Source of the DNA: Oscillibacter sp.
GTDB lineage: Bacteria; Bacillota; Clostridia; Oscillospirales; Oscillospiraceae
NCBI GenBank assembly: GCA_017446225.1
Contig: JAFSRH010000074.1
Coordinates: 1-54,222, forward strand
Reading direction: 5' to 3'
Length of the DNA: 54,222 nt
Notes under the pieces: generated by a model
Told to the model about the DNA's origin: nothing
Databases searched by the model: none
What the model saw: only the letters and a program-made list of their open reading frames with translations
In this document: piece by piece, positions 2,501-21,807 of the stretch
Layout: the number at the start of each line of letters is the position of its first letter
How positions within the stretch are numbered: the stretch's first letter is position 1
Position numbers and translations under genes: made by a program

Positions 2501-3715
2501 TCAAGTCCAGTCCGTCTGCGTCAAAAAGTCCCGGATGTTCCGGTGTTTGATTCCGTTCCGGCTGAAGTCCAGCTCGTCCATTGTCACAACGTACTTTGGG
2601 AAGTTGTCCCGGATTCCATCGTAGGCACTGAACTCCCTGCGGATAGTCTCCTCAGACGCGAGCAGATAGGCGGCCTGTACGTAGAGTTTCTCCCCGCGCT
2701 TTTCGCAGACAAAATCAACTTCCCGTTCGCCGATTTTCCCTACCGTCACTTTATATCCCCTGCGCAACATCTCCATGTAGAGAATGTTTTCCAGTACGAG
2801 GTTAATATCTCTTCTATTGCTTCCAAAGACAGCTTCCCGTAGGCCGTGGTCAGAAATATAGTATTTCTCGTTCGTGGATAAAATCTGTTTTCCCTGCAAA
2901 TCCTCCCGGCTGGCCTGATATACCAGATAGGCGTCCTTACAGTATTTGACATAGTTCAATACCGTATCTGTGGATACCGTCCGGCGTTCGTTTTTCAGGA
3001 ATTTTGCGATAGAGGTTGCCGAAAAGACCGTCCCGGCGTTCGCCATCACATAGGCAATGATTCGTTCCAGCAAATCCACGTCTCGGACATGGTTCCGCTT
3101 CACAACGTCTTTCAGTACCACGGAATTATACAAATCCTCCAAGTATCTCATGCACGGTTCCGTTTCATATCGTAAGTTACCCAAATATGGCATACCCCCG
3201 ACTGTGAGATAGGTTTGAAACATCCGCGACTGTGAAGCGTCAGGAAAGATTTGCTGGTACAGTTCCGAAAACTCCGAAAAGGAAAACGGATAAATGACGA
3301 ACTCCACATAGCGTCCCCCAAGATAGGTAGCAAGTTCGCCGGACAGCAGTTTTGCGTTGGAGCCTGTCAGATAGATGTCGCAGTCTAAGGTAGCCCGTAA
3401 GGAATTGACGCATTTCTCCCAATTCGCAACCTCTTGAATTTCATCAAAGAACAGATACGCTTTGCCATTGATTACGGAAGCGCGTTTCAGAATTTCGCTG
3501 TGCAATGCTTCTGCGGTACAAAGTCCGACGTTTTCCATCTTCTCAAAATTGAGGATGATAAACTGTTCGGAATGGATACCAGAAGCAAGCAACTCCTGTT
3601 GAATGAGTTCCAGCATGACGGACTTGCCGCTACGACGAATGCCAGTCAGAACTTTGACAAGTTCCCCATTGATGAAAGGTCGGATTTGTTTCATATAGGA
3701 TTCCCGTTGAATCAT
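2501..3715 (-). CDS. AAA family ATPase with DUF4143 domain, 404 aa
   Basis: Walker A is GIRRSGKS at residues 25-32 and Walker B is YLFFDE ending at about 92. These form the N-terminal AAA_14 domain (about 15-150). The remainder (about 190-370) matches the DUF4143 pattern, including a C-terminal piece (GEREVDFVCEKRGEKLYVQAAY) that resembles a PD-(D/E)xK-like fold. Such proteins are widespread in gut Firmicutes and archaea, often in mobile or variable regions, and their cellular role is not established. The start has AAAGGAGCG upstream. It is convergent with the serine recombinase and probably part of the same acquired segment. Confidence 0.88.
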   Translation of the reverse strand: MIQRESYMKQIRPFINGELVKVLTGIRRSGKSVMLELIQQELLASGIHSEQFIILNFEKMENVGLCTAEALHSEILKRASVINGKAYLFFDEIQEVANWEKCVNSLRATLDCDIYLTGSNAKLLSGELATYLGGRYVEFVIYPFSFSEFSELYQQIFPDASQSRMFQTYLTVGGMPYLGNLRYETEPCMRYLEDLYNSVVLKDVVKRNHVRDVDLLERIIAYVMANAGTVFSATSIAKFLKNERRTVSTDTVLNYVKYCKDAYLVYQASREDLQGKQILSTNEKYYISDHGLREAVFGSNRRDINLVLENILYMEMLRRGYKVTVGKIGEREVDFVCEKRGEKLYVQAAYLLASEETIRREFSAYDGIRDNFPKYVVTMDELDFSRNGIKHRNIRDFLTQTDWT

Positions 3716-3785
3716 ACCGCGTCACGCTCCTTTGAGGAACAGTATATCACGTTTATAAAAGATAAACAAGCGTAAATTCAAAAAT

Positions 3786-4319
3786 TTATCGACTATAATA
3801 GACAAAAAACGCATCAGGACAGCTTGTCCCAATGCTTGTTCTGTGGTAGAATCTACTTAACTTGTTATGGTTCGTCTCGCCGAAGCGCTGAAAGTGTACG
3901 ATTTCGCGGGCGCGCAAGAAGCGGATGACATCATTGACATCCGGGTCATCGGACAGGCGGAGAATGTTGTCATAGGTCACGCGCGCCTTCTGTTCCGCGG
4001 CGAGATCTTCCGTGAGGTCGGCGATAAGGTCCCCTTTGACCTGCATGGAAGCGGCGTTCCACGGGAAACCGGAAGCGGCGGTTGGATACACGCCGGCGGT
4101 ATGGTCTACAAAGTAGGCGTCAAATCCGGCCTGTTTTATTTGATCTTCCGTCAGGTTCCGGGTTAATTGGTGCACAATGGTTCCTACCATTTCGAGATGT
4201 CCCAATTCTTCGGTACCAATATCCGTCAGCAGTCCCTTGAGTTCCGGATACGGCATGGAAAAGCGCTGGCTGAGATAACGGAGAGAAGCGCCTAATTCGC
4301 CGTCCGGGCCGCCGTACAG
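3786..4319 (-). pseudogene. cotJC: cotJC-type manganese catalase, truncated at both ends
   Basis: The reverse strand reads continuous CotJC/manganese catalase sequence from YGGPDGELG (near 4316) through SMPYPELKG, TDIGTEELGHLEMV, FVDHTAGVYPT and AAEQKARVTYDNI to HFQRFGE (near 3868). The roughly 30 residues that should precede YGGPDGEL are absent; at that point the sequence joins the end of the nuclease gene at 4342. After HFQRFGE the frame continues into 26 unrelated residues and stops at 3786. The metal-ligand motifs EELGHLE and REIVHF are intact, but both termini are lost. An open frame from the internal ATG at 4256 could still give a 156-residue product. I read this as a relic of an original spore-coat gene broken by insertions on both sides. 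Confidence 0.8.
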
Positions 4320-4341: not shown

Positions 4342-4923
4342 TCACGAAAAATCCGCGATCAGACGGCCGCTCAAATCGGACAGGGATTTCAGGGCGCCGA
4401 GGGAACTGTACCCGAAATCCTGCGTCAGACTGTCCCACTGCATGAAGCCAAGGCAATGTTCCCGGGGCGTCCCGCCGACAAGCGTCCGGATTCGGGAAAG
4501 GTGCTCTTCCATGGCGAGAATGTCGGACAGGCGGGAGCTTGCGCCGTGGTCAACGTTCACCAGCAGGCCGTACTTCGCGCCGGACACGAGGCAGTATCCG
4601 ACCAGTTGCGACCACTCTTTCAAGCCCGCGCTGTCCATGCGTTTGACTTCCAGAATCAGGAGTTCAAACTTCCGGCTGTCGGTGACCAGCGCGAAAATAT
4701 CAAGATTGAGCGGCGGGACCGTCCGGGCAAAGGTACGCGCGCAGGCGCACGCCTCCGGATGTTCCCGCGAAATCCGTTCCAGATTCGTTTTTAATTCCCC
4801 AATGCCCCAGAACACGTACAACGTACGCCGTTTCGCGGCGCGGAAATTGCTTTTCAACTGCGCCTCAATAAAACGCCGGATTTCCGGGTAATAGGAAACT
4901 TCATTCCGTTTACTGTTCAACAA
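4342..4923 (-). CDS. small PD-(D/E)xK nuclease, probable restriction subunit
   Basis: About 193 residues from a TTG start at 4923. The start sits 6 bases after AAGAGG and overlaps the end of the upstream gene by 14 bases, so translational coupling is likely; an ATG at 4980 in the same frame would overlap by 71 bases. The nuclease signature is LDIFAL with Asp75, followed by LLILEVKR with Glu92 and Lys94 (numbered from the TTG), the spacing expected of a PD-(D/E)xK core. The N-terminal part is helical and basic. It is the last gene of the methylase operon, so a role in cleaving unmethylated or foreign DNA is the simplest reading. I do not recognise a specific restriction enzyme family. Confidence 0.7.
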   Translation of the reverse strand: MLNSKRNEVSYYPEIRRFIEAQLKSNFRAAKRRTLYVFWGIGELKTNLERISREHPEACACARTFARTVPPLNLDIFALVTDSRKFELLILEVKRMDSAGLKEWSQLVGYCLVSGAKYGLLVNVDHGASSRLSDILAMEEHLSRIRTLVGGTPREHCLGFMQWDSLTQDFGYSSLGALKSLSDLSGRLIADFS

Positions 4924-6295
4924 GCAAATCCTCTTCCGTGATTTCGCGGACCCGCATTTTATACGGATTCTCCGCGTCAAAGGCGATCAGTTTCCGGTAC
5001 GCCTCCGGATTTTCCGGGCCAATCAGCGCGCCGCGCCCGTTGGCGGCAATCACCAGCGGCGTCAACAGGTCCGGACGCCGCATTTCCACGCACAGGGCGG
5101 GATCGGCTTTCGTGTGGCGTTCGAGGATTTCGACATAGCCTCTGGGACGCTTGCCCGTCAGTTCGGAGTTCTCGTCCGCGATGACATAGGCGGCGGCCTG
5201 ACAGAGTTGCCCAACCGGGTAACCGGCATTCCGGGAAGGGCCGTACAGGAGCCGTTGACTGTCGCTCCGGTACACGGACAGCAGGAAGTTTACGTTCACG
5301 CGTTCCGCGCGATACGTCCGCGCGGCCATCAGGGGGACGGAACGTACGAGCGTTTCCACGCGGGAGAGCGTGTCCTTGCACAGAATCGGGAACGGATTGA
5401 TCAGGCGTCCCGCTTCCCGGAAACAGGCCCGGAGCCGGTCATACGGCGCGTGTTCGCACCCGAGCACGGCGCAGAAATGCCGCGCGTGGAGATAGTGTCC
5501 GCCCCTGATTTCGGGCGGCAGACGGGGGTCGTTTTCGGCGGGATGTACCGTGGAGGGCGTAACGCGCAGGTCGCACTGTTCGCAGGGTTTGGCGCTATGG
5601 GTCCGCTGTTGGAGCTTACGGTTTTCCGTCTGGGCGGCCGCCTTGGCGCGAAACGCGAACGCGCCGAACTGGGCGTACTGGTCCAGCAGTACGCGCAGTT
5701 TAAAGCCCTTGTTCCAGTGCGGATAATAGGGGTCGCCGGTACAATGGATGTTCGGATGGTTCCAGTTGATTTGATCCGGAATACAGCCAACGGAACAGAG
5801 CAAATGACACAAGTCATAGACGAACCGGAAATGAAAGCCCGTAATTTCAAAGGAAATCGTCTGGCGTTCGTCCGAAAATCTGCGGTGTGACTTCGCCAGA
5901 CTTCCGATCGTGTCGGCCAGTCCGGCAATAAAGCGGCGTTTCATATTGTCGTCCACCAGTTCGGGAAGCAGTCGGCCGATGTCGGCGTTCTGGCGTACGT
6001 TGCCCTCGCAGGGGAGGCCGTAACGAATCAGGTCCGCCCTGAGCGGGGCAAGGTCGCCTTCACAAAAGACGTCCCACTTGCCGCTTGACGGAAACTGATA
6101 GCACACCGAAAACCCGTAAACGGCGCGGAACATGGGTCCGACTTTACGCTGAATGTCTTGGGAGACCTGTCCGGCGCGTTCGGCGCTTTGGCCCCATTTA
6201 TTGTAAGGAAGCCGGATTTTAAAACGGTCCGCCGCGCTCCCGAACTGTCCGCCTCCAATGATAAGGCCCAGCAGATAAGCCTTGTCCGTATTCAT
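4910..6295 (-). CDS. protein with two degenerate LAGLIDADG-like motifs, 461 aa
   Basis: Two segments fit the LAGLIDADG helix pattern: LLGLIIGGG (residues 8-16) and IAGLADTIG (123-131). In homing endonucleases the eighth position of this nonapeptide is the metal-binding acid; here it is Gly15 and Ile130, so cleavage by this fold looks lost. A DNA-binding role would then resemble other catalytically dead LAGLIDADG proteins such as WhiA. The middle has Cys/His pairs (CEQC near 240, then HARHFC and LGCEH near 277-291) that might bind zinc. The C-terminal third is unrecognised. The ATG overlaps the methylase stop (ATGA) and follows AAAGGAG. Its place between methylase and nuclease suggests a recognition or specificity subunit; that is inference. 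Confidence 0.65.
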   Translation of the reverse strand: MNTDKAYLLGLIIGGGQFGSAADRFKIRLPYNKWGQSAERAGQVSQDIQRKVGPMFRAVYGFSVCYQFPSSGKWDVFCEGDLAPLRADLIRYGLPCEGNVRQNADIGRLLPELVDDNMKRRFIAGLADTIGSLAKSHRRFSDERQTISFEITGFHFRFVYDLCHLLCSVGCIPDQINWNHPNIHCTGDPYYPHWNKGFKLRVLLDQYAQFGAFAFRAKAAAQTENRKLQQRTHSAKPCEQCDLRVTPSTVHPAENDPRLPPEIRGGHYLHARHFCAVLGCEHAPYDRLRACFREAGRLINPFPILCKDTLSRVETLVRSVPLMAARTYRAERVNVNFLLSVYRSDSQRLLYGPSRNAGYPVGQLCQAAAYVIADENSELTGKRPRGYVEILERHTKADPALCVEMRRPDLLTPLVIAANGRGALIGPENPEAYRKLIAFDAENPYKMRVREITEEDLLVEQ

Positions 6296-7362
6296 GACTC
6301 CCGGCTCCTTTCACAAAACACCTGACGGTAAATGGACTCGGCGATACCCCGGGCCAGTTCCACGGGGACCGCGTTTCCGATGACTTTGTACATGGCGGTG
6401 ATATTCCGGGGGGTATCCGTCAGGAAGCGGAAGGCGTCCGGAAACGTCTGAATCCGCGCGACTTCCCGCACGGTATAACGCCGGTTTTCCGTGGGGTGGA
6501 CGATGCCGCAGTTCTCCGGCTGCGCGGACGCCGTGATGGTCCCGCAGATTTCATGGCGCGAAAAACGGCGGTAGAAGTTCGGGGAGTGGTACTTTCGCAT
6601 ATCGTCCCGGATTTTCCGGAAGCGCGGCGAGAGGAATTCGTACGGGACATCCTTCCACGAACCGCCCTCCGGGATATGGGAAATCATGGCCATCTGCTGA
6701 GGGGAAAGGGGCCAGTCCACATGATTCTGGGCCGTCTCCGGCACGTTCAAAATATGCGCAATGGTCAGGTTTTTACGGGGCTGTTTCGGCGGGAACTCGT
6801 AACGGATTTTCAAATCTTCCCGGACGCCGACAAAAAAGACCCTCTGCCGGTTCTGCGGCACGCCGTAATCGGCCGCGTTGACCAGCCGGTAACAGACATC
6901 GTACCCGATATTCCGGACTTTGGACAGGTCGTCCCGGATCACGTCCGGCAAAACGCGCCCGTCCTCGTACTTCGTGGACAGCAGGCCTTTGACGTTTTCA
7001 AAGACCACTACCTTTGGCATTTTGCTTTCAATCACGCGCAGACACTCCTTGTAGAGCATTCCGCGGGAATCGTAAATGCCCTTCCGGTTTCCGGCGTTGG
7101 AGAACGGCTGACACGGAAAGCCCGCCGTGATGACGTCGCCGTCCGGGATTTCGTCCTCCGGGACGTCCAGAATATTCCGCCCGTCAATGTTGCCAAGGCC
7201 GTTGAGCGTATAGACCGCGCGGGCGTCCGGGTCAAAGTCATTGGCCCAGACGATACGGAATCCGGCCTTCCGGAAACCGAGGTCCAGTCCGCCGCACCCC
7301 GAAAACAGGGAAATCAGGCGCGGAGCCGGATTCGTATTCGATTCGTCCGTTTTTATACCCAT
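6292..7362 (-). CDS. dcm: DNA (cytosine-5-)-methyltransferase
   Basis: A 356-residue C5 methyltransferase with motifs in canonical order: I LFSGCGGLDLGF (residues 19-30, AdoMet site), IV GFPCQPFSNAG with catalytic Cys84, VI ENVKG (about 122-126), VIII QNRQRVFFVG (about 170-179), IX REVARIQTFPDAF and X GNAVPVELA. The segment before motif IX that sets the target sequence is short, as in single-specificity type II enzymes. I place the start at 7362 because the promoter at 7403-7431 predicts transcription from about 7396; the longer frame from 7449 would begin upstream of it. First gene of a tight three-gene operon. The recognised sequence cannot be read from the protein. Confidence 0.95.
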   Translation of the reverse strand: MGIKTDESNTNPAPRLISLFSGCGGLDLGFRKAGFRIVWANDFDPDARAVYTLNGLGNIDGRNILDVPEDEIPDGDVITAGFPCQPFSNAGNRKGIYDSRGMLYKECLRVIESKMPKVVVFENVKGLLSTKYEDGRVLPDVIRDDLSKVRNIGYDVCYRLVNAADYGVPQNRQRVFFVGVREDLKIRYEFPPKQPRKNLTIAHILNVPETAQNHVDWPLSPQQMAMISHIPEGGSWKDVPYEFLSPRFRKIRDDMRKYHSPNFYRRFSRHEICGTITASAQPENCGIVHPTENRRYTVREVARIQTFPDAFRFLTDTPRNITAMYKVIGNAVPVELARGIAESIYRQVFCERSRES

Positions 7363-7402
7363 ACAGTCCGTCACCTGTCCCTCTGCCGCTGAATTGTCAA
7401 AA

Positions 7403-7431
7403 ATTTTAGCATACGCGGCGGGAGATGTCAA
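7403..7431 (-). promoter_or_regulatory. sigma-A-type promoter of the methylase operon
   Basis: On the reverse strand a perfect TTGACA (7426-7431) is separated by 17 bases from TAAAAT (7403-7408). It predicts a leader of about 35 bases before the ATG at 7362. Confidence 0.8.
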
Positions 7432-7564
7432 GGACATTTCAAGCCTCAAAAATCAGAGAAATGGGACTGTTTGCGGACATTTCCGGAAGTTTTACGGGAA
7501 TATGTAAGGGATTTCGGCGTAACGGTTCCCATAGAGCGGTTCCGTGCCGGACGGGCGGGGCGGC

Positions 7565-7593
7565 TTGCAATTTCTTCCGCGCCTGTGTATAAT
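7565..7593 (+). promoter_or_regulatory. sigma-A-type promoter of the NACHT gene
   Basis: TTGCAA (7565-7570), a 17-base spacer and a perfect TATAAT (7588-7593). The predicted start site near 7600 excludes the frame's first ATG at 7599 and supports the ATG at 7635. It is back-to-back with the methylase promoter, about 135 bases away. Confidence 0.8.
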
Positions 7594-7634
7594 AAGCAAT
7601 GACGCCACGCTTGAAAGGCCGGGGAGGGAATTAT

Positions 7635-10391
7635 ATGTGGGACGTGGTATCGTTCATTTTGGGGCCGATTTACGAGGCGGTTCTTGAGCCTGTAGTCTCC
7701 CGTTTCAAAGGGAACCGGGAGACGTTCGACAAGCGGCTGGAAACGCTCATCGACCCGGAGCGGGATTTCAACGCGATCTATAATGAAACCATCCTCACGC
7801 ACTTTGTCAAGCGCCGCTTCCGGGTCTACAGTCCCACGGACCGGCAGAGGAACACGACCATTCGCGGCATACGCTCAAAAATCGAGGAGACCGCACGCTA
7901 CAACCTGTTCCTGACCGGGGAAGCGGGCATGGGAAAATCGATCGCGTTGAAATGGCTGTATCTTCACGCGCGGCTGAAAAGTCCGCCGGAGTTTCTGTAT
8001 GCCATCGACTTTCAGGACTGCGCGGACATGGACGCCTTTTTTGAAGCGTTTTCGGCCCGGCTGGACAAGATGGAGAAAGGGACCGCCGTCTTTCTGGACG
8101 GACTGGACGAGTTAAAATGTCTCCACGGCACGCCGGAAGAGTTCGATCGGATGGCCGAGTACCTCAACGGACGGAACAGCGACAAGGGCGGGGCACACCG
8201 GTTTATCATTTCTTCCCGTCCGGAACATTTTCAGTTTCAGAACCTGTCAAAACGCGCCGGCAAGCTCAACGCGTCCTACCGCTTCTATGAAATTCTTCCC
8301 CTGAACCGCCGGGAGACCATCGGCGTCTGCAAAGCGGTCAAGTTCCTTGAAAAAAACGAGGCGGACGCGCTTCCATCCACCCGGCACTTCGCGAACAAGT
8401 ACCCCGAGACCGTGCGGAAGGAACGCAAATATCTTTGGTCGCTTCGGCGGTATCTCAGCACGGTGAGCCGGGAAAACTCCCTGCTGTCCATGCCGCTTCT
8501 GTGCCGCTACGGCTACCCGGTGATACGGGAATGGCTCGCCGATCCAGATGGCGCTTCCGGTTCCACGCAGGCGGCCCGTATCGGGAAAGTGCTGGAATAC
8601 TGCATAAAATGGGAATACCACGACCACGAGAGGGAGCACACGGACGTCAGTCCGGGCAGGGAGAAGCTCAATGAGTACGTCACGCGCGTAAAGGGGTTTC
8701 TGTCGGCGCTGGCGGGGCGCGCAACGTCAGACGGGGACATTTCCCGCAAAGACTGGGAGGAACTGCGGCAACAGGAACAGGCGCGGGAAGAATGGGAATT
8801 GAACGCCGCTTACTGCGTCCTCCGGGAGAGCAAACACGACAACGCGCTTTGTTTCACTCATGAAGTTTTCCGTGAGTTCTTTCTGGCGCGCTTTTACGCG
8901 TCCGGACAGGGAGACCGGGAATCGGAAAAACTGGCGGGGCTGTTGCGGGATAACCACGAATTCGCCGCTATGTACGCCGGACTGCTGATAACGGACGCGG
9001 ACGGCTTGTCCCGTACCGTATGCGCCTCTCTGCTGAACGCGGTCAAGGGGTCTCTGTCGGAAAAGGACAGGTACGCGCGTTTGGCGAATTACGCGCGGGG
9101 GGCGTTGTACACGGATTTTGAGAGAAACGCGGACGATTTGCCGTTTACGGTACAGGACTTTTTGCGCGTTTTCCCGCGCGGCTCTGTGTTGTACATGGGG
9201 AGGGAGTGGAACCGGGAGAACTTCGGGGAAACGCTCTCCGATGGTATCTTGAAAATTTTGGACGCGAAAGACGCGTTGGAACTGGACAAGTATCGCGCCG
9301 ACAAGATAGCCGGGGAAGGGGCCATACGCGGCGTCAGACTCGCCCAGAACACATTTTACAATTTGAGCACGGTCTTTACTTGTGTGGATCGGGGAACAGA
9401 GTATGAAATTTTCCTCACTTCTAAAGGCGGTGAAGTTCTCTCCGATGAAGAGCGGCGTCACCTGAACGACTTTAAAGTACGGGAGACAATCCAAAATCGT
9501 AAAAAAGAGAAAAGAAAGTGGGACGAACTCCTTCTGAGAACTCGAAGAGACTATATGATTCGCTTTCTGGGTGACCAGAAACGCTTCTGGTGTCTGTACT
9601 GGGAAGGCGAACTTTATGTATATGAGGATTCCACAGCCATGGCGGACCTCTTGAACGAAGTGCGGAAAAAGGAATTCTCCCTTTTTCTTAACATCTTTGG
9701 GAACTGTCAGGCTTTAAACATTCGCTCTATCCGAAATTTTCGCTGGATCAGAACGGAAGATGTTTGCATTTTACTGGACGGAATTTTTAAAGGTCTGGAG
9801 CTGTTCGAAAAAAATCTCGAAATTCTGTCGGCAGTTCAATGGGATGTCAGCCTCTTAAAGAACCCGGATTTTCAACGCTTTTCATGTGGTACCTTTAAGG
9901 AGTGTTACTTTAACACACACGCCCAAAATTACGTTTTTTTGGAAACTTTGCCTACTCAATCCAAAGAGACAGCAGTTTATGATAATATCCTGAAAAGTGG
10001 AAAATTGGATTCCCGCTTGCCCGTATCACTTGAGTATTTCTACTATGCGCGTTATATCCTGTCTCCCGAAACACCCGCAGAATCGCCGAATAATATATAT
10101 AAACTATGTACCGAAGCTCTGGACGAAGAGGAGCGGGACTTGTTGCATCTGCATATCGGGGACGAATATCTGATTATGCGCTACTTTCTCGGCGACCGGT
10201 TTCCCCCTTTTGGCGAGTGGGACAATCCGCGCCGGTTCGCGGAGGATACGCTTCCGCTGTGCGAGCGGTACGGACACACGTCCGGGGCCGAACTGCGGCG
10301 GCGTCTGCTGGACGACAACGAAGCGTTGACACGTTCCATGGAGCGTTTCCACTGGATTCGGGACTATGTGCGGGATTACATCTGGATTTGA
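7635..10391 (+). CDS. NACHT-type STAND NTPase, probable antiphage protein
   Basis: 918 residues from the ATG at 7635 (GGGGAGGG eight bases upstream). Walker A is GEAGMGKS at residues 95-102; Walker B is AVFLDGLDEL at 151-160, with the doubled acidic pattern typical of NACHT proteins. A sensor-like FIISSRPEHF follows near 192-201. The first 90 residues carry a hydrophobic opening (VVSFILGPIYEAVLEPVV) and no recognised nuclease. The C-terminal 500 residues, presumably the sensing part, match no repeat family I can name. Codon use turns AT-richer between roughly 9360 and 10110 and then GC-rich again. STAND/NACHT proteins of this design often act in phage defence. The neighbouring methylase-nuclease operon supports that, but no activity is shown. 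Confidence 0.85.
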   Translation: MWDVVSFILGPIYEAVLEPVVSRFKGNRETFDKRLETLIDPERDFNAIYNETILTHFVKRRFRVYSPTDRQRNTTIRGIRSKIEETARYNLFLTGEAGMGKSIALKWLYLHARLKSPPEFLYAIDFQDCADMDAFFEAFSARLDKMEKGTAVFLDGLDELKCLHGTPEEFDRMAEYLNGRNSDKGGAHRFIISSRPEHFQFQNLSKRAGKLNASYRFYEILPLNRRETIGVCKAVKFLEKNEADALPSTRHFANKYPETVRKERKYLWSLRRYLSTVSRENSLLSMPLLCRYGYPVIREWLADPDGASGSTQAARIGKVLEYCIKWEYHDHEREHTDVSPGREKLNEYVTRVKGFLSALAGRATSDGDISRKDWEELRQQEQAREEWELNAAYCVLRESKHDNALCFTHEVFREFFLARFYASGQGDRESEKLAGLLRDNHEFAAMYAGLLITDADGLSRTVCASLLNAVKGSLSEKDRYARLANYARGALYTDFERNADDLPFTVQDFLRVFPRGSVLYMGREWNRENFGETLSDGILKILDAKDALELDKYRADKIAGEGAIRGVRLAQNTFYNLSTVFTCVDRGTEYEIFLTSKGGEVLSDEERRHLNDFKVRETIQNRKKEKRKWDELLLRTRRDYMIRFLGDQKRFWCLYWEGELYVYEDSTAMADLLNEVRKKEFSLFLNIFGNCQALNIRSIRNFRWIRTEDVCILLDGIFKGLELFEKNLEILSAVQWDVSLLKNPDFQRFSCGTFKECYFNTHAQNYVFLETLPTQSKETAVYDNILKSGKLDSRLPVSLEYFYYARYILSPETPAESPNNIYKLCTEALDEEERDLLHLHIGDEYLIMRYFLGDRFPPFGEWDNPRRFAEDTLPLCERYGHTSGAELRRRLLDDNEALTRSMERFHWIRDYVRDYIWI

Positions 10392-15914: not shown

Positions 15915-17279
15915 TCAGTCGCGGATGGCCTTGTTCATCCAGACGCCGCTCCGGTAGCGGCGGAAGTAAATCAGGCTCCGCGCGGACCAGTCTAAAATCG
16001 CGTGGGCAAACCATACGCCTTCCACGCCGTAGCCCATGTACTTTCCCAGAACGTAGGCGAACAGGACGCGGCAGAGCCACATGGAACCCATACTAACCAG
16101 CATAGTATAGCGGGCGTCCCCCGCCGCGCGCAGAAAGGACGGTATCAGAAAGGACGGCGTCCACAGCAACATGGTCGATACCCCGTGCAGAACCGTCACG
16201 CTGACCGCGAGCCGTTCCGCCTCCGGCGACACGTTGTAAACGCGCATGATCAGCGGCAGAAACGCCAGAATCAGCAGGTTGACCGCAATCAACAGCGCGT
16301 AACAGGCCTTGCTCAGCTTGCGCATATAGCCCCGGGCCTCGTCATACTCTCCCGCGCCGGCGCACTGGCTGATGACCGTTGTCAGGCCCAGACTGACGGC
16401 CTGTCCGGCGAACACGTGGAAGTTGCCCAGCGTGTTTCCGATCGCGTTGGCCACGATGGAGGCCGTGGAGAACGTGGAAATCAGGCTGAAGAGAACCAGC
16501 CGCCCCAGTTGAAACGTACCGTTTTCAATCCCGCTCGGAATGCCAATATACAGGATGTTCCGCATCAGGCGCGGACGGAACGAGAACGCGCGCATATTGG
16601 ACAGGTGCAGGGGCAGGTTCGGGTTGCACAGGAGCGCCAGAATGACCGCCGCGGCCAGTGTGCGTGAAATCAACGTAGGGATGGCCGCGCCGGAGATGTC
16701 CATACCCAGCCCGAAGATCAGAACCGCGTTGCCGACAATGTTCACGGCGTTCATCAGGAGCGACACGGACAGCGAAAGGTCCGACCGCTCCATGGTGCGG
16801 AGTATCGCCGCGCCGCCGTTGTAAAGCGCGATCCCCGGAACGGACGCCATGACAATCAGGTAATAGGTATTCGTGGCGGCCATGACGTCCGGCGCAACGT
16901 GCCCGAAGAGCGTGCGCAGGACCGCGGGGCGGAACAGGTACAGCAACAGCGTAATCAGGACGGAGACCGTACCTAACAACAGAATCAGGTGTTGTCCGGC
17001 ATTATTGGCGTTGTCGCGCTCTTTGCGTCCGATGTACTGCCCGGCGACCACGGCCCCGCCCGCGGCCATTGCGCCGAAAGCGTATATCATCAGATTGCTG
17101 ATGGAATCGACCAGCGAGACCGCCGAAATCGCCGCGTCTCCCACGTGCGACGCCATCAGGGAGTCGGCCAGCCCCACGCCGATTGCAAGAAACTGCTCAA
17201 GAAGCAGAGGGCCGATTAGATCCACGAGTTGCCGGTTGGAGAAACGGGAAAGCGTGACAGGGTTGTGTTTTGCGTTCAT
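15915..17279 (-). CDS. MATE family efflux transporter
   Basis: A 454-residue polytopic membrane protein with about 12 hydrophobic segments and two homologous halves, typical of MATE Na+/H+-coupled drug exporters. Recognisable family features are the opening LIGPLLLEQFLAIGVGLADSLMASHVG, AAGGAVVAGQYIGRKE in the first half and AGQAVSLGLTTVISQCAGAGE in the second. Substrate cannot be predicted. The start at 17279 follows GAAAGGA. That ribosome site lies inside an inverted repeat (17287-17340). The SLH-like gene lies 67 bases upstream in the same direction. Confidence 0.93.
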   Translation of the reverse strand: MNAKHNPVTLSRFSNRQLVDLIGPLLLEQFLAIGVGLADSLMASHVGDAAISAVSLVDSISNLMIYAFGAMAAGGAVVAGQYIGRKERDNANNAGQHLILLLGTVSVLITLLLYLFRPAVLRTLFGHVAPDVMAATNTYYLIVMASVPGIALYNGGAAILRTMERSDLSLSVSLLMNAVNIVGNAVLIFGLGMDISGAAIPTLISRTLAAAVILALLCNPNLPLHLSNMRAFSFRPRLMRNILYIGIPSGIENGTFQLGRLVLFSLISTFSTASIVANAIGNTLGNFHVFAGQAVSLGLTTVISQCAGAGEYDEARGYMRKLSKACYALLIAVNLLILAFLPLIMRVYNVSPEAERLAVSVTVLHGVSTMLLWTPSFLIPSFLRAAGDARYTMLVSMGSMWLCRVLFAYVLGKYMGYGVEGVWFAHAILDWSARSLIYFRRYRSGVWMNKAIRD

Positions 17280-17346: not shown

Positions 17347-18081
17347 TTACGCTTTGGCCCGATACAGGAACGTCACAATGTCGGCGCGCGTACAGGGCGC
17401 GGACGCGCCGCCGGCGAATCCGCTCATCAGGCGTTTGACGTTGGCCCATTTGACCGCCTCCTCTTCGGTGGCGTCCGGCTTGCCCTCCGCGCGGAGCAAA
17501 TAGGTCAGCACTTCCCCGCGGGTACAGGGCGCGGTGGGTTCAAACGTTGTGGCGCTCGTGCCCTTCATGATACCGCTTTCCACGGCCCAGAGAATCGCCG
17601 TATAGAACGGCCCTTCCGAAACGTCCGTAAAGGGGTTTTTGGCGCTCTTGGGCGCCGGGGACCCCTTGGAACGCCACAGGAACGTGGCCGCGTGTCCGCG
17701 GTGACAGGGATTGTTCGGCGTGAACATGGTTTCCGTGGTTCCGCTCGTAATCCCTTTCTTTACAGCCCATTCGACCGCCTCGGCGTAGTACGCGCTGGAC
17801 GGAACATCCGTAAACGTACTGCTTTTGGCGGTGGGCTTGACGCTGGCCGTGGCCGTGGGCTTGACGCTGGCCGCGTTCGTGGGCTTGACGCTGGTCGTGG
17901 CCGTGGGTTTTGCGCCGGTTGTCGTGGTGGGCTTGGCGTTGGTTGTGGCCGTGGGCTTGCTTCCGAATCCGAACAGGCCCCGCTTCGCGCCGTCCGTATT
18001 GGCAGCATTGGCCGTCTGCGCGGCCTGTTCCTTGATTTTGTTGCTCAGCGCGTTGAATTTGTCCTTTTTTTCGTCAGCCAT
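17347..18081 (-). CDS. SLH-like repeat protein without signal peptide, 244 aa
   Basis: Residues 1-35 are hydrophilic (MADEKKDKFNALSNKIKEQ...), with no signal peptide or membrane segment. A linker of six 8-residue repeats (KPTATTxx, about 42-86) follows. Three S-layer-homology-like modules come next: FTDVPSSAYYAEAVEWAVKKGI, FTDVSEGPFYTAILWAVESGI and a shorter third, each ending in a PC(H/T)RG or PCTRAD turn and TFLWR/TYLLR/TFLYR. SLH modules normally anchor exported proteins to the cell wall, so a cytosolic version is odd. The ATG at 18081 follows AAAGGAAG, and the promoter at 18137-18165 supports it. A function is not evident; this could be an intracellular scaffold. Confidence 0.8.
   Translation of the reverse strand: MADEKKDKFNALSNKIKEQAAQTANAANTDGAKRGLFGFGSKPTATTNAKPTTTTGAKPTATTSVKPTNAASVKPTATASVKPTAKSSTFTDVPSSAYYAEAVEWAVKKGITSGTTETMFTPNNPCHRGHAATFLWRSKGSPAPKSAKNPFTDVSEGPFYTAILWAVESGIMKGTSATTFEPTAPCTRGEVLTYLLRAEGKPDATEEEAVKWANVKRLMSGFAGGASAPCTRADIVTFLYRAKA
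17831..17962 (-). repeat. 24-bp tandem repeat coding the KPT linker
   Basis: Five full 24-base units and a partial sixth begin with GTGGGCTT (plus strand) at 17831, 17855, 17879, 17903, 17927 and 17951. On the coding strand each encodes KPT plus five small residues. The copies are diverged, consistent with expansion by slippage followed by drift. Confidence 0.85.
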
Positions 18082-18136
18082 ATCTTTGCGCTTCCTTTCC
18101 GTTACAATAACGGGTCCGTTGCGCGGACCCTGTCCC

Positions 18137-18165
18137 ATTGTAGTACCGCCGCCGGAAAATAGCAA
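18137..18165 (-). promoter_or_regulatory. promoter of the SLH-like gene
   Basis: Reverse-strand TTGCTA (18160-18165), a 17-base spacer and TACAAT (18137-18142), about 55 bases before the ATG at 18081. Confidence 0.65.
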
Positions 18166-18222
18166 GTGTTTTTTACGTGGCGCGTAAAAAGCAGCCGCTC
18201 CGCGTTCTGGCGGGGCGGCCAC

Positions 18223-18309
18223 TGGTGCCGGTGGTGGGACTCGAACCCACACGGTGTCGCCACCAACGGATTTTGAGTCCGTCACGTCTACCAATTCCAT
18301 CACACCGGC
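18223..18309 (-). tRNA. tRNA-Leu (anticodon CAA)
   Basis: The reverse strand reads a complete class II tRNA. The acceptor arm GCCGGTG pairs with the 3' side CACCGGC, the anticodon loop ctCAAaa gives anticodon CAA, a long variable arm (TGGTGGCGACACCG) marks it as Leu, and the T arm carries GGTTCGAGTCC. The 3' CCA is encoded (18223-18225). It has its own promoter at 18322-18350. Confidence 0.95.
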
Positions 18310-18321
18310 GGCAACAGACAT

Positions 18322-18350
18322 ATTATACACCCTTGAAAGGCGGATTGCAA
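18322..18350 (-). promoter_or_regulatory. promoter of tRNA-Leu
   Basis: Reverse-strand TTGCAA (18345-18350), a 17-base spacer and perfect TATAAT (18322-18327), ending 13 bases before the tRNA. Confidence 0.8.
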
Positions 18351-18395
18351 GAGAAATTTTTAAAAATTTCACGCAAATGTCCGGGCGTCCAAGGC

Positions 18396-19977: not shown

Positions 19978-21807
19978 TCAGTCAAGTTCGGCCTGTCCGG
20001 TATAGAGCCGGTAATAGCGTCCCCGCAAGGCCAGAAGCTCCTCGTGACTGCCGCGCTCGATAATCCGTCCGTGTTCCAAGACAAGAATCGCCTGCGCGCT
20101 CCGTACCGTGGAAAGGCGGTGCGCGATAACAAAGACGGTCCGGCCGGTCATGAGCGCGTCCATACCCTGTTCGATCAGTTTTTCGGTCCGGGTATCGATC
20201 GAACTGGTCGCCTCGTCCAGAATCAGGACCGGCGGGTCCGCGCACGCCGCGCGGGCAATGTTGAGTAACTGCCGTTCGCCCTGACTGAGACTCCCGCCAT
20301 CGCTGGACAGTTCCGTGTCGTAGCCCTGAGGCAGACGCCGGATGAACGCGTCTGCGCCCGCCAGTCTTGCCGCCGCGTACACTTCCCCGTCCGAAGCCGC
20401 GGGGCGTCCGTAACGGATGTTCTCCATGACCGTGCCGGTAAACAGGTGCGTGTCCTGTAAGACCACGCCCAGCGAACGCCGCAAGGATTCTTTCGCAATG
20501 TCCCGCACGTTGATACCGTCATAGGTGATGGAACCGTCCTGAATATCGTAAAAGCGGTTAATGAGGCTGGTTATGGTGGTTTTACCCGCGCCGGTGGAGC
20601 CGACAAAGGCGATTTTCTGCCCGGGGTTGGCGTACAGGGACACTTCATGCAAAACGATTTTTTCCGGCACGTACCCAAACGTTACGTTTTCAAAGCGTAC
20701 GTCCCCCCGTAAGGGAACCAAACTTCCGTCCGGCTGCTTCCACGCCCAGACGCCGTTGTCATCCGGGCGGCCCCGTTCATCAACGCGCGTCAGCGTAACG
20801 GTACCGTTATCGGGTTCCGGCTCCGTCTCCATCATCTCAAAGACGCGTTCGGCCCCGGCGACCGCCGACAGAATCGTGTTGACCTGTTGCGATACCTGCG
20901 TAATGGGCTGGCTGACCTGCCGGGAGTACAGCAGAAACGCGCCCAAGCCGCCCAAGTCCCCGCTCCGGATTGCCAGCAACGCCCCCACGCAACAGGTCAG
21001 GGCGTAATTGATATAACTAAGGTTGCCCATGGCCGGCATCATGATTCCGGCGAAAATCTGCGCTCTGGTGGCGGCGGCGCGGTAGGCGTTATTTTTCTCA
21101 TAAAAGCCCGCTTTGGCGGCGTCCTCGTGATGGAACACTTTGATCACTTTTTGTCCGCCGGTCATCTCCTCAATGTAGCCGTTTAACGCGCCTAACGCCT
21201 TCTGCTGTGCGGAGAAGTAGCGGCGGCTCCGGCTCCCAATGACACGGACCACGGTCAACATCACGACCAGCATTCCCACAGTGACCAGCGTCAGGGCGGG
21301 GTTGAGAAGGAACATGGCCGTGATGGTAAAGGTAAAGTTGAGCGTACTTGAAATGAGGCTTCCGAAACTGTTGTTGAGGGCTTCCGAGATGGTTTCGATG
21401 TCATTGGTGTAACGGCTCATCAGTTCGCCGTGGGTATGGGTGTCAAAGTATCTCAGGGGAAGAGCCTGCATTTTGGAGAACATATCACGCCGAATCTGCG
21501 CCACGGCGTTCTGGGCCACCTGTACCATAATCCGGGCGTAGCCGTAGGAACAGGCGGCCCCGAGCGCGTAAATGAAAGCCATGAGGCCCAGCATACGCGC
21601 CAGTCCGGCGAAGTCGCCGGGGATGATAAAGTTGTTAATCAGCGGCTTGAGGAGGTACGACCCGCCCACCGTGCAAAGCGAACTGCACACCAGCAGAACC
21701 GCCACCAGTACGAGTACCAGCTTATAGGGGGCCAGATAACGCATCAGTTTGAAGATGGTACTTTTCAGGTCTTTGGGCTTCTGAAAGCCGGGTCTCCGCT
21801 TAGCCAT
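19978..21807 (-). CDS. ABC exporter half, canonical nucleotide site
   Basis: A 609-residue fused membrane (about 25-330) and ATPase (about 370-605) half-transporter. It has Walker A GSTGAGKTT, signature LSQGERQ (variant of LSGGQ), Walker B LILDEATSSID with the catalytic Glu, and switch His in IAHRLSTV. Its start overlaps the stop of the other half by eight bases, a sign of tight coupling. The partner carries the degenerate site, so together they form a heterodimeric exporter of the BmrCD/LmrCD or TM287/288 type. Substrate is probably a drug or lipid-like compound, not determinable here. An insertion rich in polar residues precedes the ATPase domain (about 340-365). Confidence 0.93.
   Translation of the reverse strand: MAKRRPGFQKPKDLKSTIFKLMRYLAPYKLVLVLVAVLLVCSSLCTVGGSYLLKPLINNFIIPGDFAGLARMLGLMAFIYALGAACSYGYARIMVQVAQNAVAQIRRDMFSKMQALPLRYFDTHTHGELMSRYTNDIETISEALNNSFGSLISSTLNFTFTITAMFLLNPALTLVTVGMLVVMLTVVRVIGSRSRRYFSAQQKALGALNGYIEEMTGGQKVIKVFHHEDAAKAGFYEKNNAYRAAATRAQIFAGIMMPAMGNLSYINYALTCCVGALLAIRSGDLGGLGAFLLYSRQVSQPITQVSQQVNTILSAVAGAERVFEMMETEPEPDNGTVTLTRVDERGRPDDNGVWAWKQPDGSLVPLRGDVRFENVTFGYVPEKIVLHEVSLYANPGQKIAFVGSTGAGKTTITSLINRFYDIQDGSITYDGINVRDIAKESLRRSLGVVLQDTHLFTGTVMENIRYGRPAASDGEVYAAARLAGADAFIRRLPQGYDTELSSDGGSLSQGERQLLNIARAACADPPVLILDEATSSIDTRTEKLIEQGMDALMTGRTVFVIAHRLSTVRSAQAILVLEHGRIIERGSHEELLALRGRYYRLYTGQAELD

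Follow-up and report, generated by a model that had tools for sequence, protein, structure and literature searches.

A conserved cassette of a C5 methylase, a LAGLIDADG protein without catalytic acids and a small nuclease as a candidate restriction-modification system

Could a LAGLIDADG homing endonuclease stripped of its catalytic acids serve as the DNA-reading part of a restriction enzyme? The question is raised by a locus of Oscillibacter sp. on contig JAFSRH010000074.1 (assembly GCA_017446225.1), of which all 54,222 nucleotides, referred to here as the window, were analysed. A three-gene unit occupies positions 7362-4342 of the minus strand. It begins with the gene for a C5 cytosine DNA methyltransferase (6292-7362; 356 amino acids (aa) from an ATG, with a longer TTG frame that begins at 7449). 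This is followed by LAGL (4910-6295), a 461-aa protein with a two-motif LAGLIDADG fold and a C-terminal domain, and by NUC (4342-4923), a 193-aa PD-(D/E)xK-like nuclease with a TTG start and a longer TTG frame beginning at 4980. In the open reading frame (ORF) calls the methylase and LAGL frames overlap by 4 bases and the LAGL and NUC frames by 14, and these coordinates agree with the leftward methylase/LAGLIDADG/nuclease operon described in an earlier note on this DNA.

The unit probably encodes a Type II-like restriction-modification system with a two-protein restriction enzyme: DNA recognition would fall to a dead meganuclease and cleavage to a separate nuclease. LAGL, the proposed recognition subunit, would be a former LAGLIDADG homing endonuclease, now without either catalytic acid, that binds the target sequence. 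NUC, the proposed cleavage subunit, is a small PD-(D/E)xK protein made from the overlapping frame; it would be held by LAGL and would cut at or near the bound site. The C5 methylase would mark the same site and so protect the host, methylase and LAGL presumably reading one and the same sequence. That recognition has been moved to a subunit derived from a homing endonuclease had already been suggested in the earlier note, and this part of its proposal is kept here as the best reading of the conserved cassette.

Relatives of the cassette in distant hosts

With LAGL as the query, the GTDB contigs yield 13 loci of 47-64% identity, all titled as metagenome-assembled genomes (MAGs), and a sample of 398 genomes of the phylum adds one close relative, G210. 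The methylase gene lies directly before LAGL and NUC directly after it in 14/14 of these, and a viral contig, L057, is a fifteenth relative with the complete cassette. Gene content and order are identical in 15/15 uninterrupted close relatives (the 13 MAGs, G210 and L057), each of which, like the window, links a methylase gene to a nuclease gene. No helicase or ATPase gene that would supply an ATP-dependent motor or translocase lies inside the three-gene unit. The unit is conserved across distant hosts: the MAG titles include Lachnospiraceae, Clostridia, Oscillospiraceae, Christensenellaceae, Coriobacteriia, Prevotellaceae and Phocaeicola, and further Lentisphaerae, Gastranaerophilales and the archaeon Methanimicrococcus, with the proviso that individual host names may be wrong.

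In the phylum sample each gene was used as a separate query. The methylase (at E<=1e-80) and the close NUC profile each detect 2/398 genomes, the window's own (G000) and G210, and LAGL detects 3/398, namely these two and, distantly, G116. L019 is left out of the counts of distinct sequences given below since its LAGL and NUC are identical to those of L018, as are L052-L056, which repeat the L022-L025 contigs. Incomplete loci are likewise not counted: L017, where LAGL ends at about residue 80, L030, which has no adjoining NUC, and L031, where the methylase is merged with a LAGL remnant. L057 stands outside the 22/22 and 23/23 motif counts, and its own sequence shows the same motifs.

Some of these relatives have noteworthy genes at or beside the cassette. 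A phage integrase and an Abi_2 abortive-infection gene are found at 3-1701 of L057, near its complete cassette. By the cassette of the archaeal MAG (L013, 10417-15198) there are a second C5 methylase, an 885-aa protein with two HATPase domains and a 306-aa protein without a Pfam match, possibly a further defence system. On the viral contig L017 (109-1508) the LAGL sequence diverges after about residue 80 and, by inspection, continues into phage tail genes; a transposable phage has possibly inserted in the LAGL gene.

Predicted folds and catalytic residues

The product of the first gene is a C5 methylase by profile (PF00145, E=2e-77; TIGR00675 exceeds its cut-off) and by the motifs PCQ, ENV, QNRQRV and GNAVP, which are legible in its sequence. 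Pairwise identity of the methylase is 66-84% in 15 cassettes. The closest solved structure is M.HaeIII, with which it aligns over its length, and it has a stretch where a target-recognition domain of its own is expected. The likeness to M.HaeIII was also considered as a guide to the methylated target; the target-recognition stretch aligns poorly, and no site is claimed. Vsr repairs deaminated 5-methylcytosine and is expected beside an active 5-methylcytosine system. Vsr genes adjoin 4/16 close cassettes (L009, L011 and L015 by Pfam, L004 by tblastn), and none is found in the window by the same search.

LAGL and NUC of the window have no match at 0.001 in Pfam, NCBIfam, PADLOC or PHROGs. Sequence-only searches against solved structures give nothing useful for either protein, and the evidence on their folds therefore comes from AlphaFold models and Foldseek. 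The Pfam family Hom_end matches the 15 close LAGL proteins weakly, in 3/15 and with a best E-value of 0.013. The LAGL model, made from 15 aligned sequences, has a mean predicted local distance difference test score (pLDDT) of 79.7. It finds 548 PDB matches at E<=10, 30 of them at E<=0.001, and 50/50 listed matches are LAGLIDADG proteins. The first is I-DmoI (E=2.6e-5, probability 1.00), and PI-SceI, inteins and the WhiA domain 3hyj are among those listed. A two-motif LAGLIDADG fold (two LAGLIDADG helices, alpha-beta-beta-alpha-beta-beta-alpha) is confidently predicted for LAGL. For its C-terminal domain (about residues 285-461 of the 461-aa form) no convincing match was found; the LAGL of L013 (8001-9563) carries an insertion of about 56 residues in this domain.

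The catalytic acid of LAGLIDADG enzymes is the eighth residue of each motif. In the window the motifs are LLGLIIGGG and IAGLADTIG, with a non-acidic residue at position 8 of both, and an acid occupies this position in 0/23 distinct LAGL sequences, in either motif. At this position the close sequences (n=15) have G (motif 1) and I (motif 2), and the distant ones described below have N or R (motif 1) and T or A (motif 2). Motif 2 has an invariant aspartate as its sixth residue. The two degenerate LAGLIDADG motifs that the earlier note had called from raw sequence are confirmed by the Foldseek matches and by the missing acids at position 8. LAGLIDADG proteins read long DNA sites, and a protein that has this fold and has lost the catalytic acids may well be the one that supplies specificity.

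It might be asked instead whether LAGL is a homing endonuclease gene that has invaded a restriction operon, or an enzyme that still cuts by means of other residues. Its fold and presumed origin would suit such a history, and D128 and E150, which are invariant in 13 aligned sequences, would be the residues to consider. However, the position-8 acid is missing from both motifs in 23/23 distinct sequences. LAGL is also present in every close cassette, not merely in some, with its frame coupled to that of NUC, and methylase genes adjoin every LAGL relative met. A selfish or still-cutting LAGL is very improbable on these grounds.

NUC has weak sequence matches to PDDEXK_3 (E=0.025) and GxxExxY (E=0.02), and its AlphaFold model is confident (pLDDT 89.6). 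The model places D75 on strand 73-81 and E92 and K94 on the adjoining strand 86-94; Q106 lies in the helix that comes next. All distinct NUC sequences (22/22) keep the motif D..ExK..QL. Since the model sets D and ExK on adjacent strands and the motif is kept throughout, the small PD-(D/E)xK nuclease of the earlier note stands, its matches to known folds being weak. To judge by this motif, NUC is a likely DNA-cutting protein. Thus, the known catalytic residues of the respective folds are missing throughout from LAGL and present throughout in NUC.

Coupling of LAGL and NUC

The reading frames of LAGL and NUC overlap by 4-20 bases in 23/23 pairs, the window included, with the qualification that start codons of the close set were chosen by a script near the aligned start and that 10/22 have an in-frame start no more than 60 bases past the LAGL stop, so that some of these frames may not truly overlap. 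The methylase and LAGL frames overlap in 6/21 (window included; L006 and L025 left out). Pairwise distances in 15 cassettes are correlated at 0.65 for LAGL and NUC (permutation p=0.001), the highest of the three pairs; the values are 0.38 (p=0.03) for methylase and LAGL and 0.40 (p=0.06) for methylase and NUC.

Weak matches lead to a distant branch on Lactiplantibacillus plantarum plasmids (two records, whose LAGL and NUC do not differ), in two gut phages and on four viral contigs. The distant LAGL proteins are 290-299 aa long and are without the C-terminal domain. Comparison of close and distant LAGL profiles gives a probability of 99.5 (E=1.7e-22), and a profile of four distant LAGL sequences detects the LAGL of the window at 4.6e-20. 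Each distant LAGL is followed by an overlapping gene for a D..ExK..QL protein of 158-168 aa. The plasmid and phage products of both genes are annotated as hypothetical. Distant members, in those of the libraries Pfam, PHROGs and PADLOC against which they were run, have no match at 0.001 except for one PADLOC row, PtuA on the L022 protein (7e-4, 16.7 bits), which was taken as chance.

The methylase changes in this branch. A fused EcoRI-type and C5 methylase lies beside the pair on the plasmids (L018, by PF13651 and PF00145) and, by inspection, in the phages. On L024 and L025 the EcoRI-type and C5 methylases are separate genes, again by inspection, and on L022 and L023 an N4/N6 methylase adjoins the pair (PF01555, tested on L022 only). 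The LAGL-NUC pair is found, in all, beside three kinds of methylase. The gene overlap, the co-variation and this persistence beside different methylases point to a complex of LAGL and NUC. Where the distant branch has two methylases, the site may be asymmetric and each strand may have a methylase of its own, an arrangement described for Type IIT enzymes in the available excerpts of PMC4081073. L025 also encodes a NOV_C-domain protein (2868-3944), between the methylases and the LAGL-NUC pair.

The same observations bear on a rival view, in which NUC by itself would be a conventional small Type II enzyme that reads its own site and LAGL would regulate the operon in the manner of WhiA. WhiA shows that LAGLIDADG proteins can turn into regulators, and NUC, at 158-198 aa, is big enough to form a homodimeric enzyme. 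However, a regulator need not overlap the nuclease gene, as LAGL does in 23/23 pairs, or co-vary with its product at 0.65, and LAGL persists where the type of methylase changes. The core fold also fills most of NUC, which would leave little space for a recognition domain. A purely regulatory LAGL is accordingly considered unlikely.

Several observations weigh against a two-protein enzyme of LAGL and NUC. The fold matches of NUC are weak, with none at E<=0.001. The best is PaqCI (E=0.010, probability 0.97), and the other top matches are many chains of RPB5, which presumably shares the restriction-enzyme fold, together with EndoMS, Can2, MunI and EcoT38I. The NUC proteins of the two branches are also weakly homologous (hhalign probability 13.7, E=0.002), and the distant NUC profile is silent in the window's own genome; the case for a shared LAGL-NUC pair is therefore made from order, size and motif. 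The C-terminal domain of LAGL could contain an unrecognised catalytic site. In L006 (6885-9401) the methylase and LAGL share one 838-codon open frame, which could hint at a tie between these two proteins instead. G116 has a methylase and LAGL with no adjoining NUC seen, and the close NUC profile is silent there. So is the distant NUC profile, whose silence says little since it is silent in all four genomes searched, the window's own included. G116 looks decayed, as does G362, where the methylase is merged with a LAGL remnant.

The joint frame of L006 and the gene content of G116 would both suit a LAGL that acts as a specificity subunit or accessory factor for the methylase, and is perhaps shared with the nuclease in the way that HsdS of Type I systems serves two activities. 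Yet the alignment with M.HaeIII leaves the methylase its own target-recognition stretch, so that it should need no such help, and related LAGL proteins adjoin unrelated methylase families. This role of LAGL is judged quite improbable. A split enzyme of LAGL and NUC remains the preferred reading, and the two branches fairly likely make up one family of natural, split restriction endonucleases: a dead meganuclease would find the site and a separate PD-(D/E)xK protein would cut. Such a family would work with exchangeable methylases (C5 alone, EcoRI-type plus C5, or N4/N6-type) and would be spread by plasmids, phages and integrative elements.

Surroundings of the unit and relation to known systems

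The operon is preceded by a promoter-like site on the minus strand (7431-7403; TTGACA-17-TAAAAT, 11/12 matches, with TG before the second hexamer). A second site, on the plus strand (7565-7593; TTGCAA-17-TATAAT, 10/12), belongs to a divergent gene for a NACHT/STAND-like NTPase (7599-10391, plus strand; 930 aa from the first ATG or 918 aa from the next). The two sites are divergent, with about 130 bases between them, and two such sites in the real sequence compare with 0.4 +/- 0.6 in shuffled sequence; the back-to-back, near-consensus promoters noted earlier are borne out as promoter-like sites. The NTPase was described in the earlier note as a NACHT protein of 918 residues facing away from the operon. 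The divergent orientation and, from the second ATG, the length are correct, whereas the NACHT domain falls below the curated cut-off (Pfam NACHT E=0.009, 16.3 bits against 26.7). The protein also matches AAA_22 weakly, again below cut-off (E=0.007), and the NCBIfam model EruA scores 11.9 against a cut-off of 1000.

The earlier note had placed this NTPase in the system as a second layer and had asked for all four genes together in other genomes. Methylase, LAGL and NUC do occur together in 15/15 close relatives, and the NACHT-like gene was not found with them. A homologue of it is found at 0/14 close loci, each with 3.9 to 17.5 kb of DNA and L057 not among them, and in 0/147 other genomes of the class. 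These absences, together with its own divergent promoter-like site, led us to drop the gene from the system. It is a neighbour and may be a defence gene of its own.

On the other side of the unit, next to NUC, a Mn-catalase gene is broken. Its middle part (profile 28-189 of 284) lies at 4319-3876 of the window, and its first part (profile 1-35) is on contig C51 of the same genome, by a recombinase-like gene recognised by inspection (L064, G000:C51; 4219-4323, 4341-5807). A 21-bp sequence at 4297-4317 of the window, within its catalase fragment, is matched exactly in the fragment on C51 and may be an integration junction that bounds the cassette. The broken catalase and the shared 21 bp suggest an integration into the catalase gene that left a fragment at either side, the cassette lying at one of its ends, but the last third of the gene is also lost. 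On the far side a YchF gene comes after the NACHT-like gene. In six same-genus genomes (of 12), YchF is the only stretch shared at the DNA level. Synteny at the protein level is further limited to 44-49% matches to the ORF at 15915-17279, at two loci, and weak matches to 17347-18372 and 19978-21807. No empty insertion site was found in the six genomes compared.

Beyond the catalase fragment, positions 2501-3715 encode an AAA_14/DUF4143 protein that matches PDC-S01, a candidate defence family of PADLOC (E=2.1e-157), and a large serine recombinase (909-2438) adjoins this gene.

No precedent for a LAGLIDADG restriction system was found among the openly licensed papers listed by the searches, and the earlier note likewise knew of no described restriction system of such composition; REBASE was not covered, and absence here is no proof. 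The restriction reviews PMC4081073, PMC12707154 and PMC12114051 do not use the word LAGLIDADG in their main text. As far as these searches reach, the cassette would be a Type II restriction-modification system whose recognition subunit has a fold new to such systems.

Heteromeric Type II enzymes as such are described in excerpts of PMC4081073, including BtsI, BsrDI and BspD6I/BstNBI (Type IIT) and BslI (alpha2:beta2). BtsI, BsrDI and BspD6I resemble the present system in pairing a larger, recognising subunit with a smaller partner, which in BstNBI/BspD6I has 186 aa (same excerpts). They differ in that the large subunit also cuts, BtsIB having a PD-EXK motif according to the portion of PMC2909958 at hand, and BslI differs by the zinc in its Cys4 motifs (PMC4081073, in part). 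BtsI, BsrDI and BslI were considered as known members of the family and tentatively set apart by these partial descriptions, with the PD-EXK motif in the large subunit of BtsI and the zinc motifs of BslI. PaqCI, a Type IIS enzyme and the best fold match of NUC, has its recognition and nuclease domains in a single chain (excerpt of PMC10201449).

Together with the heteromeric enzymes, the nearest functional relatives are engineered fusions of PvuII to inactive I-SceI (Fonfara et al. 2012, cited in PMC3857828, from an excerpt), in which a dead LAGLIDADG protein likewise aims a restriction nuclease. Those fusions are artificial, whereas the system here is natural and consists of two genes with a methylase adjoining. 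The homing endonucleases I-DmoI and PI-SceI have the same two-motif LAGLIDADG fold as LAGL, which differs from them in its missing catalytic acids and in being a separate gene beside methylase genes at the loci seen. WhiA/DUF199 is alike in its LAGLIDADG fold. In contrast to LAGL, it is a transcription factor with a helix-turn-helix domain, and the portion of its description available names no methylase or nuclease partners.

If LAGL and NUC do form such a split enzyme, the cassette would show a route by which immunity can take over a selfish endonuclease, and would be a natural counterpart of the engineered fusions with inactive meganucleases. Because the methylase reports the site, the homologues beside different methylases could then teach how the LAGLIDADG fold reads DNA.

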